Shown here: positions 5,043-58,493 of the stretch, piece by piece | Layout of the letters: each line of letters starts with the position of its first letter | Numbering within the stretch: the first letter of the stretch is position 1 | Source: a virus | DNA length: 62,224 nt | IMG/VR virus record: IMGVR_UViG_3300030331_005246 | Location: 1-62,224 of that record | Strand: one strand, 5' to 3' | Notes under the pieces: model-generated | The model's database searches: none | The model's input: only the letters and a program-made list of their open reading frames with translations | Told to the model about the DNA's origin: nothing | Position numbers and translations under genes: made by a program

Positions 5043-5150
5043 TGCATTTTTTGTATCATTCGCATAGAGAAAAGAAAATCTGGCTCAAAATCAGGCCCAC
5101 TTTCACTCCACCCCGCCAAACCCCTTGCTACCACTGGGTTCTCACTTTCA

Positions 5151-20576: not shown

Positions 20577-20984
20577 ATGGCTGCCAAAAAGAAAATGCCT
20601 CCTGAACTTCTAGAAAAGTTCAAGGCAAAAAATGCAAAGAAACAGGGTAAAAACGATCGTGATGACGAGAGTATTGGCGCTCGTCGTGGCAAGAAATCAC
20701 AGAGCTTGAAAGATCGTCGCGACGAATCCAAGGCAGCTGAAAAGAAAGCAGGCAAGCGTCCTTATTCCAAGGTTGATCAATCAAAACCAGGGACTAAAGG
20801 TAGGAAAACAGCTAGCCAAAAGGATGCTGAGATTAAAAAGAAACAAGGTACTGTTAAAAAGTTAGCAGCTCTTAAAAAGAAACAAGGTGGAAAACTTACT
20901 GCAGCTCAGCAAAAGAAATATGGTAAACAGTTTTCAAAGACAAAAGCAGCTCAAGCCAGGAGACGTACTGCTAGGAGAAAGTAA
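20577..20984 (+). CDS. Lys-rich basic protein (135 aa)
   Basis: Lys, Arg, Ala and Gln make up most of this protein (MAAKKKMPPELLEKF; AALKKKQGGKLTAAQQKK; QARRRTARRK). It lacks a folded-domain signature but looks like a nucleic-acid-neutralising protein, possibly packaged in the virion. The following gene starts on its stop (TAATG). Confidence 0.7.
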   Translation: MAAKKKMPPELLEKFKAKNAKKQGKNDRDDESIGARRGKKSQSLKDRRDESKAAEKKAGKRPYSKVDQSKPGTKGRKTASQKDAEIKKKQGTVKKLAALKKKQGGKLTAAQQKKYGKQFSKTKAAQARRRTARRK

Positions 20985-33008: not shown

Positions 33009-34172
33009 TCAAACGTTACCATCATCAGCAACAAAGCTGAATGCGGTGGTGATGAAATCGGTGTTTAACACTTCAAAACCGGCGTACAATTGCCAGATCA
33101 AAATGATAAAGCGACTGAAGTCATCGTTGTTGTTAATTAACACTTGGGCATTGGGTCCACCAATACCTACGCCGATGGATTGAGGGCCGAAGAAGAAACC
33201 TTGAGCCACTTCTTCTGCTGCATAAGGAGCAGCGCCAGTGAAGGAAGCTTGTACAGCTTTGGTGGGGAAGTTGGTTGACTCGAAGAACTTAACGCCTTCA
33301 AACTGGACACCAGTAGGCATCACAGGTTCACCGGCCAGGAAATACCCTTGTCCAGCCTGGGGACCCATGTAGAAGCTGGTGTTGTTAGGCATCATGGGGT
33401 TAGCCATGTACATGCCTTGTCCAGGATTGCCGCTGTAGCGGGCGATCTCACGGAAGTCTTCGTCCCTCCGCAGATGCATCATGAATGTGGGATCACAAAT
33501 ACAGCGGTACATTCCGTCTGCAAATGTGGGCACATTGCGCTTTCTCAGATCTTTGACGACCTCAAGAAGGTCAGTACGAACCGAGAACTGCTGGACCTGT
33601 GCAGTGAATTCTGCAGCAGTGTAGGTGATTTGATTTTGGGCGTTCTTTGCTTTGTCGCCAGCAAAATAGTAACCACCTTGCTTGGAGTTGGCTTGGCCTT
33701 GTGCTTCTGCTTTTGCAAGCTCATCAATGAAGACGCGGTCACGCCAACGGCGATAGTCATCCAGCAGCGTCAAGCTACCGATGGACTGGTGGAACATGTT
33801 GAGGTTGCCGGTGTCTAACAGCAGACGCTGTGCAGTCACCAAGGTTTCCCGTGCAATCTTGAACGTAGAAGGCTGGGTAGGATCGCCTGGATCTGCAGGG
33901 CCGGTGTATTCCTTAAGCACCACCAGAACTTTCTCTTTAGTGATGTTACGGCTATTTGCAGTACCAATCGTCTGGTCGGAGATACGCTCGCGGCTATCCT
34001 TAGTACCAGGTTGTCCCCAAAACTTGTAACGATCGAGTTGCACAGTCTGGCCGGGTTGTGATGTGAAATCATGCACAACTACAGGCTCTGTTGCCATCTC
34101 ACAGATGTAAGCTGGGTGGGGCCGATATAATTCAGCACCTAAGATTTTTGGAAAATCGTTGTCTAAGAACAC
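33009..34172 (-). CDS. Major capsid protein candidate
   Basis: The 387-residue protein begins at GTG 34172, with a strong GGAGG ribosome site upstream. It has the length and position (after portal, scaffold and a small gene) expected of a major capsid protein. The sequence is an alpha/beta mix with few charges at the ends (FLDNDFPKILGAELYRPHP) and a long helix (YRRWRDRVFIDELAKAEAQG), reminiscent of N4 gp56-type capsid proteins. That subfamily match was not tested. Confidence 0.75.
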   Translation of the reverse strand: MFLDNDFPKILGAELYRPHPAYICEMATEPVVVHDFTSQPGQTVQLDRYKFWGQPGTKDSRERISDQTIGTANSRNITKEKVLVVLKEYTGPADPGDPTQPSTFKIARETLVTAQRLLLDTGNLNMFHQSIGSLTLLDDYRRWRDRVFIDELAKAEAQGQANSKQGGYYFAGDKAKNAQNQITYTAAEFTAQVQQFSVRTDLLEVVKDLRKRNVPTFADGMYRCICDPTFMMHLRRDEDFREIARYSGNPGQGMYMANPMMPNNTSFYMGPQAGQGYFLAGEPVMPTGVQFEGVKFFESTNFPTKAVQASFTGAAPYAAEEVAQGFFFGPQSIGVGIGGPNAQVLINNNDDFSRFIILIWQLYAGFEVLNTDFITTAFSFVADDGNV

Positions 34173-52131: not shown

Positions 52132-52428
52132 ATGGCATTTGAAGACGATAAGGACCCAGTTGGTCCACCGATCGCCAATTTCAGTGATCGTGACTTTAAT
52201 AACGCAGAGCGTGGAATTAAATTGTTTGCGATTGCCGATGGTGCAGAGAAATTTGCAGCAGAGGGCCACAGTCCCTTAGAAGTTCAAACCTATATCAACG
52301 CAGCGAAGCGTGAATTAGCTGCACAAAATCCAGATACTGGATCAATGAACAAAGCGTTCCAGGTTGTGAATCGATATAAGGCTATGAAGGAAAAAGCAGG
52401 GCCAGGTGAGCCGATCTTCAATCCGTAA
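52132..52428 (+). CDS. Hypothetical early protein (98 aa)
   Basis: A hydrophilic protein (MAFEDDKDPVGPPIANFSDR) with a helical middle (VQTYINAAKRELAAQ). It is the first plus-strand gene after the strand switch and lies 98 bp from the divergent 1110-residue gene. No domain recognised. Confidence 0.6.
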   Translation: MAFEDDKDPVGPPIANFSDRDFNNAERGIKLFAIADGAEKFAAEGHSPLEVQTYINAAKRELAAQNPDTGSMNKAFQVVNRYKAMKEKAGPGEPIFNP

Positions 52429-52718
52429 GATGAAGTGAATTTGGGTTAATTGTTTGGGGTAGAAGGGAACTTTTACCTCAATTTGTGCTGAAAATTTTTA
52501 TTTTTATTTATAATTTTATATTTTTTTAATTATTAACTCATATATGTGAAAAAGGCTAAAAATTATCCGAGACATCTCACACACGTCATCCGACTGTGAT
52601 GCCGTATAGAAAAAAAGAAAGGGTGGGATAGGTGTTAATACCTACTGGGCGGGACGGCAGCCAGTCGAGCGATGACTGTGACAATTTGGCCAACTGACAC
52701 ACTAACTGGCACACTAAG

Positions 52719-52733
52719 TGTCACACTGTGACA
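52719..52733. promoter_or_regulatory. 15-bp palindrome TGTCACA-C-TGTGACA
   Basis: Perfect 7-bp half-sites flank a single C. A further half-site TGTGACA occurs near 52676. The symmetry and clustering suggest a dimeric DNA-binding protein. Confidence 0.6.
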
Positions 52734-52754
52734 GTTGCCGAACTGTCCCCAACA

Positions 52755-52820
52755 CCCCTGCGAAACCCGCAGACAATCCCCTAACCGGCCACCAGCGCCC
52801 GTTAAACCCCTGCGAAACCC
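52755..52820. repeat. Direct repeat CCCCTGCGAAACCC, two copies
   Basis: Identical 14-bp copies at 52755-52768 and 52807-52820, 52 bp apart. The AACCCCTTGC words near 4817 and 5118 are loosely similar, hinting at a shared binding protein. Confidence 0.7.
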
Positions 52821-53039
52821 AGCCGAAATCCCTTCCGGCGCAATGGATCTCAGACTTTTTGCGCCCATTTGGGAAAGATTTCCGCGCTAATAATCGCCGC
52901 GTAAGACTGTTATCTACACGATCTAAATGATAATTAAGCGAGAAAGTTGATACGAATTCGTATTACTTTCCGCCGTTAATCATAGATCTAATCGTCAAGC
53001 TGGACGTTAAACGTAGCGCCAAACTCTACTCAACTCATC

Positions 53040-53264
53040 ATGGCTTACACCATCAGCACCAAGCAAGCTGTTTACGAATTCAACGTCGCTTTCATCGAAG
53101 ACAAAGTCTTTACGAAAGAGGACACTGCACCATATGCAGGTGTTGTTTACGTCACCAAGTGGATTCTTAAAGGCTCAGGTTGCAAAGACGCTCATGTCTC
53201 CACCAGCACTGACCTGACTTCCGCTTGTAAGTGGATCAAACAGCTCAAAGCTTCCAACAAGTAA
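53040..53264 (+). CDS. Small early protein (74 aa)
   Basis: From ATG 53040 (MAYTISTKQAVYEFNVAFIE) the protein is alpha/beta with three aromatic strands (VVYVTKWILKG) and a basic end. No Shine-Dalgarno is seen; the start follows a CTACTCAACTCA tract like the B elements. Its stop codon is inside the closing stem of element A1. Function unknown. Confidence 0.68.
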   Translation: MAYTISTKQAVYEFNVAFIEDKVFTKEDTAPYAGVVYVTKWILKGSGCKDAHVSTSTDLTSACKWIKQLKASNK

Positions 53265-53348
53265 CCACAGGCGTGACGCTGGAGCCTCGAAGGCTCCGGT
53301 TACTTATTGCCTCCAGCAGAGATAGGCACTGCACAACAGGAGATTCCT
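53259..53348 (+). promoter_or_regulatory. Structured leader element A1
   Basis: First of five A elements. Closing stem P1 AAGTAACC / GGTTACTT (53259-53266 with 53298-53305) includes the stop codon of the gene before. Inside are a 3-bp GCG-TGA-CGC hairpin and P3 GGAGCC / GGCTCC (53281-53297). Then TTGCC...GGCA (53307-53328) and GCAG / CTGC (53316-53332) form two short overlapping hairpins. A third hairpin ACAGGA-GAT-TCCTGT holds the AGGAG ribosome site and runs into the GTG start. Confidence 0.75.
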
Positions 53349-53600
53349 GTGACATACGTCGAACGCTTATCCGATGATGAGCTATGGACCGCTGCACTCA
53401 CTCTCGATAGTGAAGGCAACTACGTGTTCGGAGCCGCAGGCAAATTTGTTCTATTGGATCTTGATAGTCATGTGATGTCTTATTACATCAACACTGAAGA
53501 TCCTCTGCCTGAAGACTTCTATCACCACCCCAGCGATGCTGACTACGAAAACAGCATCTACGACGCTCAACTCGCTTATGAAGTGAGTACATCCAGCTGA
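53349..53600 (+). CDS. Small acidic protein (83 aa)
   Basis: GTG 53349 is chosen as start because an AGGAG site lies six bases upstream within element A1. The protein is acidic (VERLSDDELWTAALTLDSEG; EDPLPEDFYHHPSDADYE), with no membrane segment. An in-frame TTG upstream would translate the structured leader and is unlikely. Function unknown; a phage takeover protein is possible. Confidence 0.65.
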   Translation: MTYVERLSDDELWTAALTLDSEGNYVFGAAGKFVLLDLDSHVMSYYINTEDPLPEDFYHHPSDADYENSIYDAQLAYEVSTSS

Positions 53601-53687
53601 CCACCAGCGTGATGCCGGGGCCTCGAAGGCCCTGGTCAGCTCTTGCCTCCTGTGGAGATAGGCACCACATCAAACCAGAAACCAACC
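53595..53687 (+). promoter_or_regulatory. Structured leader element A2
   Basis: P1 is AGCTGACCA / TGGTCAGCT (53595-53603 with 53633-53641, 9 bp, includes the stop). P3 is GGGCC / GGCCC around TCGAA (53618-53632). The downstream hairpin is TGTGG / CCACA (53651-53655 with 53665-53669), where A1 has GCAG / CTGC: pairing kept, sequence changed. Confidence 0.75.
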
Positions 53688-53876
53688 GTGATCAACCAAC
53701 GCACGTATTTCGGCTTCGTTGCTACATGCATCGCACTCGTCGGAATAGGCGGTTATGGCTCCGTCCAACTCCTCGACAAAGCCACCGCACACCAGTGCAG
53801 CACCCATGACTGGCCTGCTGAGAAGCATGCAATCCATGTCGAGTGGTGCGAGCACAACAACTACCCAACCAACTGA
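53688..53876 (+). CDS. Small single-TM protein with two Cys (62 aa)
   Basis: The frame starts at GTG 53688. One hydrophobic helix (YFGFVATCIALVGIGGYGS, about 7-25) is followed by a short outside-type domain with Cys pair QCSTHDW...VEWCEHN. The layout is shared with the protein at 54764-54982 (helix, then LL...QC...YC), so the two look paralogous. It may sit in the thylakoid or inner membrane. Function unknown. Confidence 0.62.
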   Translation: MINQRTYFGFVATCIALVGIGGYGSVQLLDKATAHQCSTHDWPAEKHAIHVEWCEHNNYPTN

Positions 53877-53961
53877 TTCGTTCAAGCGAGTGACCAGGTG
53901 CAAACCCTGGTCCAGTTATTGCCTCCAGCAGAGATCGGCACTGCACAATTTGATTTACTTC
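53871..53961 (+). promoter_or_regulatory. Structured leader element A3
   Basis: P1 AACTG / CAGTT (53871-53875 with 53913-53917); P2 TCG-TTCAAG-CGA (53878-53889); P3 GACCAGG / CCTGGTC (53892-53898 with 53906-53912) with loop TGCAAAC; then the TTGCC...GGCA / GCAG...CTGC switch region. Nearly identical in P2/P3 to A4. Confidence 0.75.
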
Positions 53962-54120
53962 ATGAAAGTCCTTTATGAAGCAGTAGCAATCACCTCGGAC
54001 TATCAAATGATCCGATTTGGACCTCCATTCAAGACAGAGGAAGACGTGTGGTACTGGCTGCACTTTGAATGTGATTGCTGCCCCGAACATCGTTCAATCG
54101 AAGTTCTTCCAGTCGTCTGA
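53962..54120 (+). CDS. Small Cys-containing protein (52 aa)
   Basis: From ATG 53962 the protein reads MKVLYEAVAITSDYQMIRFG and continues to FECDCCPEHRSIEVLPVV, with three close Cys that could bind metal. It lies between elements A3 and A4, with its stop in the A4 closing stem. No known family. Confidence 0.62.
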   Translation: MKVLYEAVAITSDYQMIRFGPPFKTEEDVWYWLHFECDCCPEHRSIEVLPVV

Positions 54121-54210
54121 CTGATTCGTACAAGCGAGTGACCAGGTGCAAACCCTGGTCCAGTCCTTGCCCACAGCGGAGATGGGCACCGCACACAACA
54201 GGAGAATCCT
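54119..54210 (+). promoter_or_regulatory. Structured leader element A4
   Basis: P1 GACTG / CAGTC (54119-54123 with 54161-54165) differs from A3 by a compensated A-T to G-C pair. P2 and P3 match A3. The switch region reads TTGCCC...GGGCA and GCGG / CCGC (54176-54179 with 54189-54192), again compensated. A hairpin ACAGGA-GAA-TCCTGT (54198-54212) covers the ribosome site and the GTG start at 54211. Confidence 0.78.
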
Positions 54211-54393
54211 GTGACCACTACCACTCGCCCCGCACGTTCTGACTGGGACGCCATCCACGTTCCTACTCGTGAAGAGTGCGGCGAGATCGTCTTCTGTCAG
54301 ATCAAGAATCTGATGGAGGACGGTTACTCCCAAACTCTCACCCGAGAGCACGCAGCAGAGATTGCAAAGTATGCAATCAGGCTGCTCAGCTGA
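54211..54393 (+). CDS. Small helical protein (60 aa)
   Basis: The start is GTG 54211, with AGGAG at the expected distance. The sequence opens TTTTRPARSDWDAIHVPTRE and becomes helical (LTREHAAEIAKYAIRLLS). It has one Cys pair and no membrane helix. Its stop TGA lies in the A5 closing stem. Function unknown. Confidence 0.65.
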   Translation: MTTTTRPARSDWDAIHVPTREECGEIVFCQIKNLMEDGYSQTLTREHAAEIAKYAIRLLS

Positions 54394-54479
54394 TCCGTCA
54401 ACGCGGTCATCCCCGGTGCAATGCCGGGGTCAGCTTTTGCCTCCAGCAGAGATAGGCACTGCACATTGTATTGCACACT
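54388..54479 (+). promoter_or_regulatory. Structured leader element A5
   Basis: P1 AGCTGA / TCAGCT (54388-54393 with 54430-54435); P2 CCG-TCAACG-CGG (54395-54406); P3 CCCCGG / CCGGGG (54411-54416 with 54424-54429) with loop TGCAATG; switch region TTGCC...GGCA and GCAG / CTGC (54446-54449 with 54459-54462). P2 and P3 have different bases from A3/A4 but the same pairing. Confidence 0.75.
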
Positions 54480-54683
54480 ATGAAATGTTTTTCACTTCCA
54501 GTTGTTATTCCAACAGCTGTATTTGTTGCAGCAACTGCTATAGCTGCAGCTATTCCTCAACCTGCATGTGCACAACAAGCACAATGCTGGAACGAAATGC
54601 ATTACTACCAGAAGACGTGGGGTGGCTGCATACCAGTCCAACGCTTTCCAAACGGAAAGACCTTGCATGTCTGTTGCCGCTGA
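54480..54683 (+). CDS. Predicted secreted Cys-rich peptide (67 aa)
   Basis: The N-terminus has a signal peptide: MKCFSLPVVIPTAVFVAATA followed by IAAAIPQPACA with a likely cleavage after ACA. The mature ~37 residues (starting QQAQCWNEMHYY) contain four Cys that could form two disulfides. Export would place it in the periplasm or outside. It may act on the host envelope or on other phages; there is no family match. Confidence 0.65.
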   Translation: MKCFSLPVVIPTAVFVAATAIAAAIPQPACAQQAQCWNEMHYYQKTWGGCIPVQRFPNGKTLHVCCR

Positions 54684-54707
54684 CCCACAATTCCATAGTT
54701 AACACAT

Positions 54708-54763
54708 AGTCCTGAGCATGACTCTAAACTGCTCACGACTCAACTCAACCGTTAATCATTCCA
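54708..54763 (+). promoter_or_regulatory. Repeated leader element B1
   Basis: First of eight clear B elements. All share the order GTCC, stem TGAGCA, loop TGACNNTAAAC (11 nt), stem TGCTCA, then ACTCAACTCAAC and the start codon within about 15-30 nt. Here the stem is 54713-54718 with 54730-54735. It heads the gene group 54764-55733. Confidence 0.75.
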
Positions 54764-54982
54764 ATGACTCAATCCCCAGCGAGTTACATCAGCGCCATTG
54801 CATTCGGTATTGCCATTGGCCTCATCGGTTGTGTAAGCGGTCAACGCTTACTCAACAACCACAACACTGTGCAATGCGCTAACAAGAATGCAACGCACAA
54901 GCTTGTTACTTACAGCTCATACCTTGGCGATGCCAAATATTGTATGAACAAGCGTGCTTTTCATTACGGTCCTGCTCACTAA
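54764..54982 (+). CDS. Small single-TM protein with two Cys (72 aa)
   Basis: One hydrophobic helix (AIAFGIAIGLIGCVSG, about 11-26) is followed by QRLLNNHNTVQCANKN and a C-terminal YCMNKRAFHYGPAH. It has the same helix-LL-QC arrangement as the protein at 53688-53876. Function unknown; probably in a host membrane. Confidence 0.65.
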   Translation: MTQSPASYISAIAFGIAIGLIGCVSGQRLLNNHNTVQCANKNATHKLVTYSSYLGDAKYCMNKRAFHYGPAH

Positions 54983-54991
54983 TTCCTCACC

Positions 54992-55168
54992 ATGACACCA
55001 CTCAACCTTCGCAACAAGTTCAGAACAGCAACACATCTGACAGCATCCGGCTTGATGAAAGCCGGTGATGCCGTTGCTGACATGCAGATGCCAGATACAG
55101 AATCTTTTGTACTTGGCATCAAGAAAATCCGCCGTAACATAGCTCAGACCATTCAACCCAACGATTGA
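54992..55168 (+). CDS. Small hypothetical protein (58 aa)
   Basis: From ATG 54992 the peptide reads MTPLNLRNKFRTATHLTASG and continues as an Asp/Met/Ala-mixed helix ending IRRNIAQTIQPND. No domain seen. The start has no Shine-Dalgarno, as in most of this block. Confidence 0.55.
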   Translation: MTPLNLRNKFRTATHLTASGLMKAGDAVADMQMPDTESFVLGIKKIRRNIAQTIQPND

Positions 55169-55175
55169 ATCCTTT

Positions 55176-55406
55176 ATGCAAGAAAGTTACACTGAGCGTC
55201 ACCCAGACAACAACATCAGCATCGAACTACCGATGCATGAAACCATCACGACATACCTACCGAACGGTTATCGGTTTGTCGTGGAAAACACAGGTGATCA
55301 AATCATCACTCGTTATTACAATCCCAATGACGAGTGTACCCGTGAAATCACCTGTGACTATAGCGGCGAGGTCCGTTACATCAACTTTCCAACCAAATCA
55401 GTTTAA
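55176..55406 (+). CDS. Small hypothetical protein (76 aa)
   Basis: Beta-rich sequence with polar ends (MQESYTERHPDNNISIELPM; FVVENTGDQIITRYYNPNDE) and two Cys (NDECTREITCDYS). It is 7 bp from the preceding gene. Not recognised. Confidence 0.62.
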   Translation: MQESYTERHPDNNISIELPMHETITTYLPNGYRFVVENTGDQIITRYYNPNDECTREITCDYSGEVRYINFPTKSV

Positions 55407-55432
55407 TTATTCCTTAATCTTTCCTATTTGTT

Positions 55433-55606
55433 ATGTCCCCGCTCAACGAAACCCAAAAGACCACTTTGCCACTTATCGCACTGTGTGCCGTCGCAACACC
55501 GTTCGTCGGCCCAGTAGCACTCCTTGGTGGTCTTGGCATGACTGCATACTACTGCGCCAAATCCAACAAGAACCAATCCGATGACTCAACACACCCTAAG
55601 AACTGA
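55433..55606 (+). CDS. Small membrane protein (57 aa)
   Basis: The start ATG 55433 follows a TTTGTT tract. Residues 10-43 are hydrophobic and Gly/Ala-rich (LPLIALCAVATPFVGPVALL) and may form one or two membrane helices; the tail is polar. It overlaps the next gene by 26 bp. Function unknown. Confidence 0.58.
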   Translation: MSPLNETQKTTLPLIALCAVATPFVGPVALLGGLGMTAYYCAKSNKNQSDDSTHPKN

Positions 55607-55733
55607 GGCCACACATCAATGGGGCAACACTACATTTCGTGTTGGCAATCGTTTTTACAACGTTGACTCGCACAAATCACCAGGCCTACGTAACAAATTA
55701 GGCCGCGCACTCATGAAGTTACTACACCTTTAA
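55581..55733 (+). CDS. Small basic protein (50 aa)
   Basis: ATG 55581 (MTQHTLRTEATHQWGNTTFR) lies inside the previous gene in another frame. The product ends in a basic helix (GLRNKLGRALMKLLHL). Coding is plausible from the operon fit, but the 26-bp overlap adds some doubt. Confidence 0.5.
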   Translation: MTQHTLRTEATHQWGNTTFRVGNRFYNVDSHKSPGLRNKLGRALMKLLHL

Positions 55734-55738
55734 TTCAT

Positions 55739-55834
55739 AGTCCTGAGTATGACTTTAAACTGCTCATGTCAACAGAACGGCATTTACTTAACGTATCCGT
55801 TCTGACTTGTTAACTCAACTTAACTCTACTTGTT
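55739..55834 (+). promoter_or_regulatory. Repeated leader element B2 with extra hairpin
   Basis: The stem is TGAGTA / TGCTCA (a G-U replaces one pair). Between the conserved hairpin and the CAACT tract there is an inserted 8-bp hairpin CAGAACGG / CCGTTCTG (55773-55780 with 55797-55804). The end CTCTACTTGTT-ATG leads into the gene at 55835. Confidence 0.7.
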
Positions 55835-58422: not shown

Positions 58423-58446
58423 ATGACCTACCGTAGGTCTTATTAA
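58423..58446 (+). CDS. Possible 7-residue leader peptide MTYRRSY
   Basis: An ATG at 58423 follows the same TTGACCC box as real genes and reads MTYRRSY before a TAA at 58444-58446. The last codons lie in arm a of the mutually exclusive hairpins that follow. Such a short peptide cannot be supported by length, so the call depends on its position. Confidence 0.4.
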   Translation: MTYRRSY

Positions 58447-58493
58447 AGGTTTAGGTGATTCCCTTTAATAAGAAAACTTCTTATTAAAGTTTT
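58438..58493 (+). promoter_or_regulatory. Attenuator-like pair of mutually exclusive hairpins
   Basis: Arm a (58438-58449) pairs with arm b (58462-58473) for 12 bp, while arm b shifted by one base (58463-58474) pairs with a third arm (58478-58489) for 12 bp with a 3-nt loop, followed by TTTT (58490-58493). Only one fold can exist at a time. The second is a terminator. The leader peptide ends inside arm a, so ribosome movement could decide between them. Confidence 0.55.

Follow-up and report, generated by a model that had tools for sequence, protein, structure and literature searches.

Five elements between short genes

The window, i.e. the whole stretch of 62,224 nucleotides that was analysed, is an incomplete virus record whose terminase large subunit is 80% identical to that of Synechococcus phage S-EIV1. 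A second protein, encoded at 33009–34172 and probably the major capsid protein, is 85% identical to its S-EIV1 counterpart. S-EIV1 is the only close isolate and carries the element described below in its own small-gene region.

A reading of positions 52200–55800 confirmed five copies of a structured RNA element between short ORFs, all on the plus strand. The original prediction had placed them here, and the P1 and P3 pairs that it listed, together with their compensatory changes, are correct. Exactly five occurrences of the 3' motif TTGCCNNNNGNNGAGATNGGCANNNCA were counted in the window as compared to none in 100 shuffles, and covariance models derived mostly from the sequences of other viruses gave significant window matches to all five copies and to nothing else. 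Taken singly, the copies have modest minimum-free-energy z-scores (-0.9 to -2.8) and unremarkable folding energies; the evidence for the five elements rests on comparison.

Each copy may be considered in terms of a half-tRNA followed by a pseudoknot. In copy 1, the half-tRNA (53259–53306) is composed of P1 AAGTAACC/GGTTACTT, P2 GGCGTGACGCT and a T-arm-like P3, GGAGC-CTCGAAG-GCTCC, with a discriminator-like A at 53306; it includes the stop codon TAA (53262–53264) of the ORF at 53040–53264. The pseudoknot (53307–53331) pairs TGCCT with AGGCA in S1 and GCAG with CTGC in S2. It is followed at 53334–53351 by a Shine-Dalgarno/start hairpin, ACAGGAGATTCCTGTG, with the GTG start (53349) of the next ORF, 53349–53600. 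The half-tRNA of copy 2 (53595–53642) has P1 AGCTGACCA/TGGTCAGCT with a TGA stop codon inside it and P3 GGGC-CTCGAAG-GCCC, and its pseudoknot (53643–53667) has S2 GTGG/CCAC, a compensatory change relative to copy 1; the next start is the GTG at 53688. Copies 1 and 2 are designated type B.

The remaining three copies, designated type A, have a 7-nt T-loop. In copy 3 (half-tRNA 53871–53918), P1 AACTG/CAGTT and P3 GACCAGG-TGCAAAC-CCTGGTC add up to 5 + 7 = 12 bp, P2 is TCG-TTCAAG-CGA, and the stop is the TGA at 53874–53876. Its pseudoknot (53919–53943; S2 GCAG/CTGC) precedes the ATG at 53962. Copy 4 (half-tRNA 54119–54166) retains the same P3 with P1 GACTG/CAGTC and a TGA stop at 54118–54120; the pseudoknot (54167–54191) has S1 TGCCCA/TGGGCA and S2 GCGG/CCGC, and the next start, GTG 54211, lies in the hairpin CAGGAGAATCCTGTG. 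Copy 5 (half-tRNA 54388–54436) is split 6 + 6, with P1 AGCTGA/TCAGCT, P3 CCCCGG-TGCAATG-CCGGGG and a TGA stop at 54391–54393, and its pseudoknot (54437–54461; S2 GCAG/CTGC) leads to the ATG at 54480. A near-identical virus (L026) has GCGG/CCGC in S2 of copy 5 where the window has GCAG/CTGC. Given how closely the two viruses are related, this double compensatory change is a recent one.

A second repeated RNA element, (N)GTCCNNRRYATGACNTAAACTGYYY, is present in eight window copies on the plus strand upstream of genes, at 54709, 55740, 58545, 58779, 59866, 60406, 60994 and 61788. Among 55 distinct copies in the fetched loci, S-EIV1 included, covariation of its NGTC/GACN and of its GAGCA/TGCTC-type segments supports another pseudoknot of the H-type, and none was seen with a half-tRNA in front. 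Window positions 58436–58492 match (86%) the region just past the psbD stop codon of S-CAM9, antisense to psbD, possibly as a shared terminator or intergenic element.

The half-tRNA and its 3' module

Three features of the element had been overlooked in the original prediction: the nature of the P1 and P3 stems, that of the GCAG/CTGC part, and the distance to the next start codon. P1 and P3 form a single acceptor/T-arm helix of a constant 12 bp that is closed by a T-loop and split 5 + 7, 6 + 6 or 7 + 5 in a 12-bp search; the length mode is also 12 when 10–14 bp are permitted. The order of parts is a three-way junction, one discriminator-like base, UU and then the 3' module. Among copies with a 7-nt loop, the T-loop ends 13 nt before UUG in 110 of 136, a spacing that equals 12 acceptor/T-stem bases plus one discriminator and matches the stretch in tRNA between position 60 and the nucleotide that follows the discriminator. 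The 7-nt T-loop follows the pattern U54-[G/U]55-C56-R57-A58. In a set of 180 copies, for which A58 was a search condition and UU a filter whose count carries no evidential weight, residue 54 is U in 153, residue 56 is C in 174 and the discriminator-like base is A in 155.

The covariation test called for in the original prediction was performed with two alignments that include the pseudoknot, one of 52 type A rows (A1) and one of 28 type B rows (A2). In A1, 97.6% of the cells are paired, as compared to 35–45% in slid controls, and 16 of 24 pairs are changed on both sides; doubly changed cells number 234 versus 63.6 in shuffles, which leave relatedness in, and some alignment columns are invariant owing to the search pattern. 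The A2 alignment is similar (97.1% paired, both-side changes in 16 of 25 pairs). In a ranking by corrected mutual information, calculated with no structure as input, the pairs of P3, P1, P2, S1 and S2 come out highest or nearly so. Such strong covariation bears out the earlier view of a conserved RNA that is probably a cis-regulator or processing signal. Two bases before P3 also covary with the last two T-loop bases (A1 columns 26–41 and 27–40; GU/AC, GA/UC, CA/UG). This pairing looks sterically impossible alongside P3 and would be a matter of subfamily history or an alternative fold.

The P2 hairpin occupies the place of the D-arm, and the last two residues of its loop behave like D-loop positions 18 and 19. 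A UGC T-loop goes with AG or CG at 18–19 and a UUC T-loop with GG across many different P2 scaffolds, examples being TCG-TTAAAG-like loops with UGC and TCG-TTAAGG-CGA with UUC; the rare U56 T-loops tend to have A at 19. For 50 distinct combinations, with P2 loops parsed from Watson-Crick stems and loops of at least 5 nt, 18–55 covariation (G18 with U55, A18 or C18 with G55) was found in 45 versus 30.8 expected (0 of 50,000 shuffles), and Watson-Crick 19–56 in 44 versus 40.5 expected (34 of 50,000 shuffles). The covariation supports, but does not prove, a contact between the D-loop and T-loop, and the tRNA elbow formed by the P2 loop on the T-loop is probably real. These statistics cover type A. 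Type B copies have a UCGAA core with a covarying 54–60 closing pair, which reads as a compact variant of the T-loop.

The 3' module of the window copies is a pseudoknot with S1 UGCCY/RGGCA, L1 of 3 nt, S2 GNNG/CNNC and L2 AGAU; a third loop is absent. Both crossing helices covary (S1 columns 58–76 and 61–73; S2 columns 66–80 and 67–79), as expected of the H-type. S2 was found as GCAG/CTGC, GCGG/CCGC, GTGG/CCAC, GAGG/CCTC and GCCG/CGGC and is 100% paired in A1. With 0 nt between the two 3' strands the fold is sterically tight, and it is possible that the helices alternate and do not form simultaneously. The pseudoknot is conserved more strongly than the half-tRNA. A scan for the hairpin ATTGCNNCACACTGAGTGNNGC returned 37 stretches, and nearly all distinct copies have a half-tRNA directly upstream. 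Thus, the half-tRNA occurs with two 3' structures that are unrelated to each other and both begin right after the discriminator and UU.

Membership in the manA or wcaG families, left open originally, can be answered in the negative. Both are structured cyanophage RNAs, probably located in 5' UTRs (PMC2864571), with another structure and another gene context. Neither manA (RF01745), wcaG (RF01761) nor any other Rfam 15 family matched at the gathering score in the whole window, and over the 1.3-kb five-copy region there were only chance matches up to E = 10. The RNA family has no counterpart in Rfam 15, and the open-licence PMC literature yielded no account of it, of phage tRNA-like punctuation or of tRNA-like intergenic repeats.

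Compared to tRNA (RF00005), the element has the 12-bp coaxial acceptor/T-arm helix, the 7-nt T-loop with U54, C56 and A58 (a variant loop in type B) and, by covariation, the 18–55 and 19–56 elbow. The anticodon arm is absent, its place being taken by a J region of 8–25 nt, and ARAGORN reported no tRNA or tmRNA genes. The tRNA-like domain of tmRNA is similar in that it has an acceptor stem, a T-arm, a reduced D-arm and no anticodon arm; the phage elements differ in having no mRNA-like region, no CCA and no G3-U70. This alanine identity pair occurs in 0 of 180 copies, where 3–70 is C-G or U-A, and alanine charging was rejected since it is missing.

Distribution among phages

A pattern scan of IMG/VR returned at least 119 matching stretches. 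When 155 distinct copies were parsed structurally, a half-tRNA was found in front of 146 (score of at least 17). The 138 fetched loci include 94 that encode S-EIV1-like proteins, 7 that are T7-like and 37 left unassigned. The half-tRNA sits between short genes and is usually followed by the hairpin or pseudoknot and then the next start codon. A segment GGGG(G)CTGCGCATC...CGCAG is common to S-EIV1 and an IMG/VR contig, upstream of small genes (L001 5699–5730; L104 about 5050–5080).

T7-like cyanophages have the same order of modules, with most copies in the early region, the part of the genome in which T7 has its RNase III sites, and a stop codon usually in or near P1. Two copies are present in NATL2A-133, three in 9515-10a, and one clear and two probable copies in S-CBP2. 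P-SSP7 (NC_006882) has one imperfect early copy and two weaker matches, the elements lying near 602–648, 2550–2605 and 20631–20679. The last of these is outside the early region, in the interval from psbA to the gene for the major head protein, and is a half-tRNA with a mini D-arm (TTAAAG loop, UGC T-loop). In T7 itself, the half-tRNA descriptor found nothing at score 20 and a single match at 17 across gene borders that is not convincing. A BLAST match in Synechococcus phage P60 is antisense to genes and was disregarded as probably fortuitous. In S-CBP2 (NC_025455), a 'hypothetical protein' region at 857–1100 adjoins half-tRNAs; an RNase P RNA was suspected there from GAGGAAGTCCGG, CCGATGG and GCAGAACGG and finds no support in RF00010 or, at E values of up to 1, in Rfam.

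Actinophages of Gordonia and Mycobacterium also have the half-tRNA. Gordonia phage ObLaDi has nine matches in 49.8 kb, which is part of its genome, versus none in ten shuffles per strand; seven of the nine are on one strand, six of these in one operon. Morgana has four matches in 3 kb, MyraDee two and Odin one. These copies typically have G1-C72 and a J region that contains GGU, and they lack UU; most continue with ACG, a hairpin, CACCCAACA and a start codon. The CACCCAACA sequence is conserved between the hairpin and the start codon in most intergenic copies of ObLaDi and Morgana (Gordonia phages L158, L161 and L162).

A host origin was considered and rejected: a search of 84,980 bacterial and archaeal genomes with the pseudoknot pattern as the sole 3' module matched only two MAG contigs, neither cyanobacterial by title. 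The T-arm half aligns independently to phage tRNA-Leu genes in BLAST and some relatives encode integrases, as might be anticipated if the elements were decayed tRNA genes or tRNA-derived attachment sites. This origin is very improbable given that there are many copies per genome, strictly intergenic, with compensated P1 strands, fixed kinds of mini D-arm and constant 3' modules; an attachment site needs just one tRNA 3' end.

A possible role at gene borders

P1 was originally said always to contain the upstream stop codon, which is true of all five window copies and does not extend to the family, where 74% of 145 testable copies have a stop (mostly TGA) in the P1 slot as compared to 9% of random positions. 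The next start codon is 17–19 nt past the pseudoknot in 94 of 132 copies. Some copies have a GTG within a Shine-Dalgarno hairpin and others an ATG, mostly with no Shine-Dalgarno; 58 of the 132 have the Shine-Dalgarno/start hairpin.

Since the junction is tRNA-like, a processing signal is favoured over the other options. On balance, each element is proposed to act in cis as a half-tRNA punctuation mark of the polycistronic early mRNA, which host tRNA-maturation enzymes would cut into single-gene messages. That the same half-tRNA precedes a pseudoknot or an unrelated hairpin, in an order that recurs in unrelated T7-like cyanophages and actinophages, supports the processing model. Host nucleases that recognise an elbow and acceptor end would treat the half-tRNA as a pre-tRNA, and the likeliest cut would be one made by tRNase Z immediately behind the discriminator. 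The geometry of elbow, acceptor stem and non-CCA trailer fits this enzyme, and the discriminator is mostly A followed by UU in independent cyanophages. A cut by RNase P at the 5' side may occur, above all in actinophages. An obligatory RNase P cut in cyanophages is disfavoured because the stop codon inside P1 would be detached, which would not happen in the ObLaDi copies examined. Thus, RNase P is a less probable candidate for the principal enzyme of cyanophages and a better fit for actinophages, whose copies, given G1-C72 and the absence of UU, may differ in the side that is cut or in the enzyme that cuts.

After such a cut, the upstream message would keep its stop codon and gain a tRNA-like 3' end. 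The downstream message would start with one or two unpaired bases and then the pseudoknot or hairpin, which should make it less open to attack by RNase E and RNase J that depends on the 5' end. Single-gene early messages of differing stability would result, and a ribosome terminating in P1 would open this stem, so that translation could time the cut. The cyanobacterial enzyme set includes RNase Z, RNase P, RNase E and RNase J, a 5'-3' exonuclease, and RppH is missing from it (PMC10989914). Stem-loops at the 5' terminus stabilise E. coli mRNAs (Emory, Bouvet and Belasco 1992, as cited in PMC3997798), and a cyanophage of Prochlorococcus MED4 is reported to encode a factor by which the RNase E of the host is increased in infected cells (PMC9692554). 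With a host RNase set that is without RppH and with RNase E raised by the phage, protection of the 5' end would pay.

The fold could also act with no endonuclease, by stopping exonucleases (RNase J from the 5' side, PNPase or RNase II from the 3' side) and so shielding neighbouring cistrons. A three-way junction directly before a pseudoknot or hairpin at cistron borders would suit such a roadblock, for which the T-loop residues, the discriminator-like base and the D-loop/T-loop covariation are superfluous, and this role is considered rather unlikely. The conservation of the pseudoknot is far beyond the need of mere end protection and counts against the processing model. The half-tRNA and pseudoknot may instead recruit or park a post-termination ribosome for the next start, as a standby site or in an IRES-like manner, with no cleavage. 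The stop codon in P1, the start spacing, the Shine-Dalgarno/start hairpins and a pseudoknot that outdoes the half-tRNA in conservation all favour this explanation, which is nonetheless unlikely: a plain hairpin freely replaces the pseudoknot behind the same half-tRNA, the spacing differs in S-CBP2, NATL2A-133 and actinophages, and no anticodon-like or ribosome-contacting part was identified in the element. The fixed spacing suggests a translation role as well, and one in addition to processing is quite possible. The tight spacing and the conserved AGAU loop could also indicate a ligand- or protein-sensing switch, either riboswitch-like or an autogenous repressor site, on each small early gene. 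This is improbable since the downstream genes are varied tiny ORFs with several copies per operon, an alternative terminator is absent, Shine-Dalgarno sequestration is not consistent, and the half-tRNA is also found with unrelated 3' modules and in other phyla.

In its broadest form, the half-tRNA punctuation model would have phages whose hosts belong to two or more bacterial phyla, whether by independent origin or from ancient times, using minimal half-tRNAs as intercistronic cleavage signals and host tRNA-maturation enzymes as mRNA processors, yielding an end-protected and possibly ribosome-timed message per early gene. This generalisation is plausible and is put forward tentatively. The RNA family itself, with its secondary and probable tertiary covariation, is widespread among viruses from the environment and also occurs in model phages in culture. 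If the proposed mechanism is true, it explains early-operon processing in phages with no obvious RNase III sites and extends tRNA punctuation from mitochondria to phages, and minimal half-tRNA substrates would serve to define the requirements of RNase P and tRNase Z. The P-SSP7/MED4 and the Gordonia or mycobacteriophage systems make the mechanism directly testable.

Relatives of the mechanism are already known in tRNA punctuation and phage early-mRNA processing, of which the half-tRNA family would be a new form. T7 has RNase III sites between its early genes, structured cleavage signals that give single-gene messages. Both are structured signals between early phage genes, with cleavage proposed for the present elements; the T7 sites are long double-stranded hairpins cut by RNase III, in contrast to a half-tRNA. 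Mitochondrial tRNA punctuation, in which RNase P and tRNase Z excise tRNAs, likewise places tRNA-shaped signals at the gene borders of polycistronic RNA. Those signals are full tRNAs that work in translation, whereas the phage elements have no anticodon arm or CCA end and belong to lytic phages; no paper tying the model to phages was recognised in the open-licence PMC literature. The SAS/ESAS repeats of cluster K mycobacteriophages lie ahead of many small phage genes and resemble the present elements in this respect; they are not known to be tRNA-like. RNase P cuts phage and mRNA substrates, including C4 antisense RNA, M3 RNA and a his operon site (PMC11143913). These are also tRNA-like targets in phage RNAs or polycistronic mRNA, but they are single unrelated cases as compared to a repeated intergenic family with a T-loop, an elbow and a 3' pseudoknot or hairpin.
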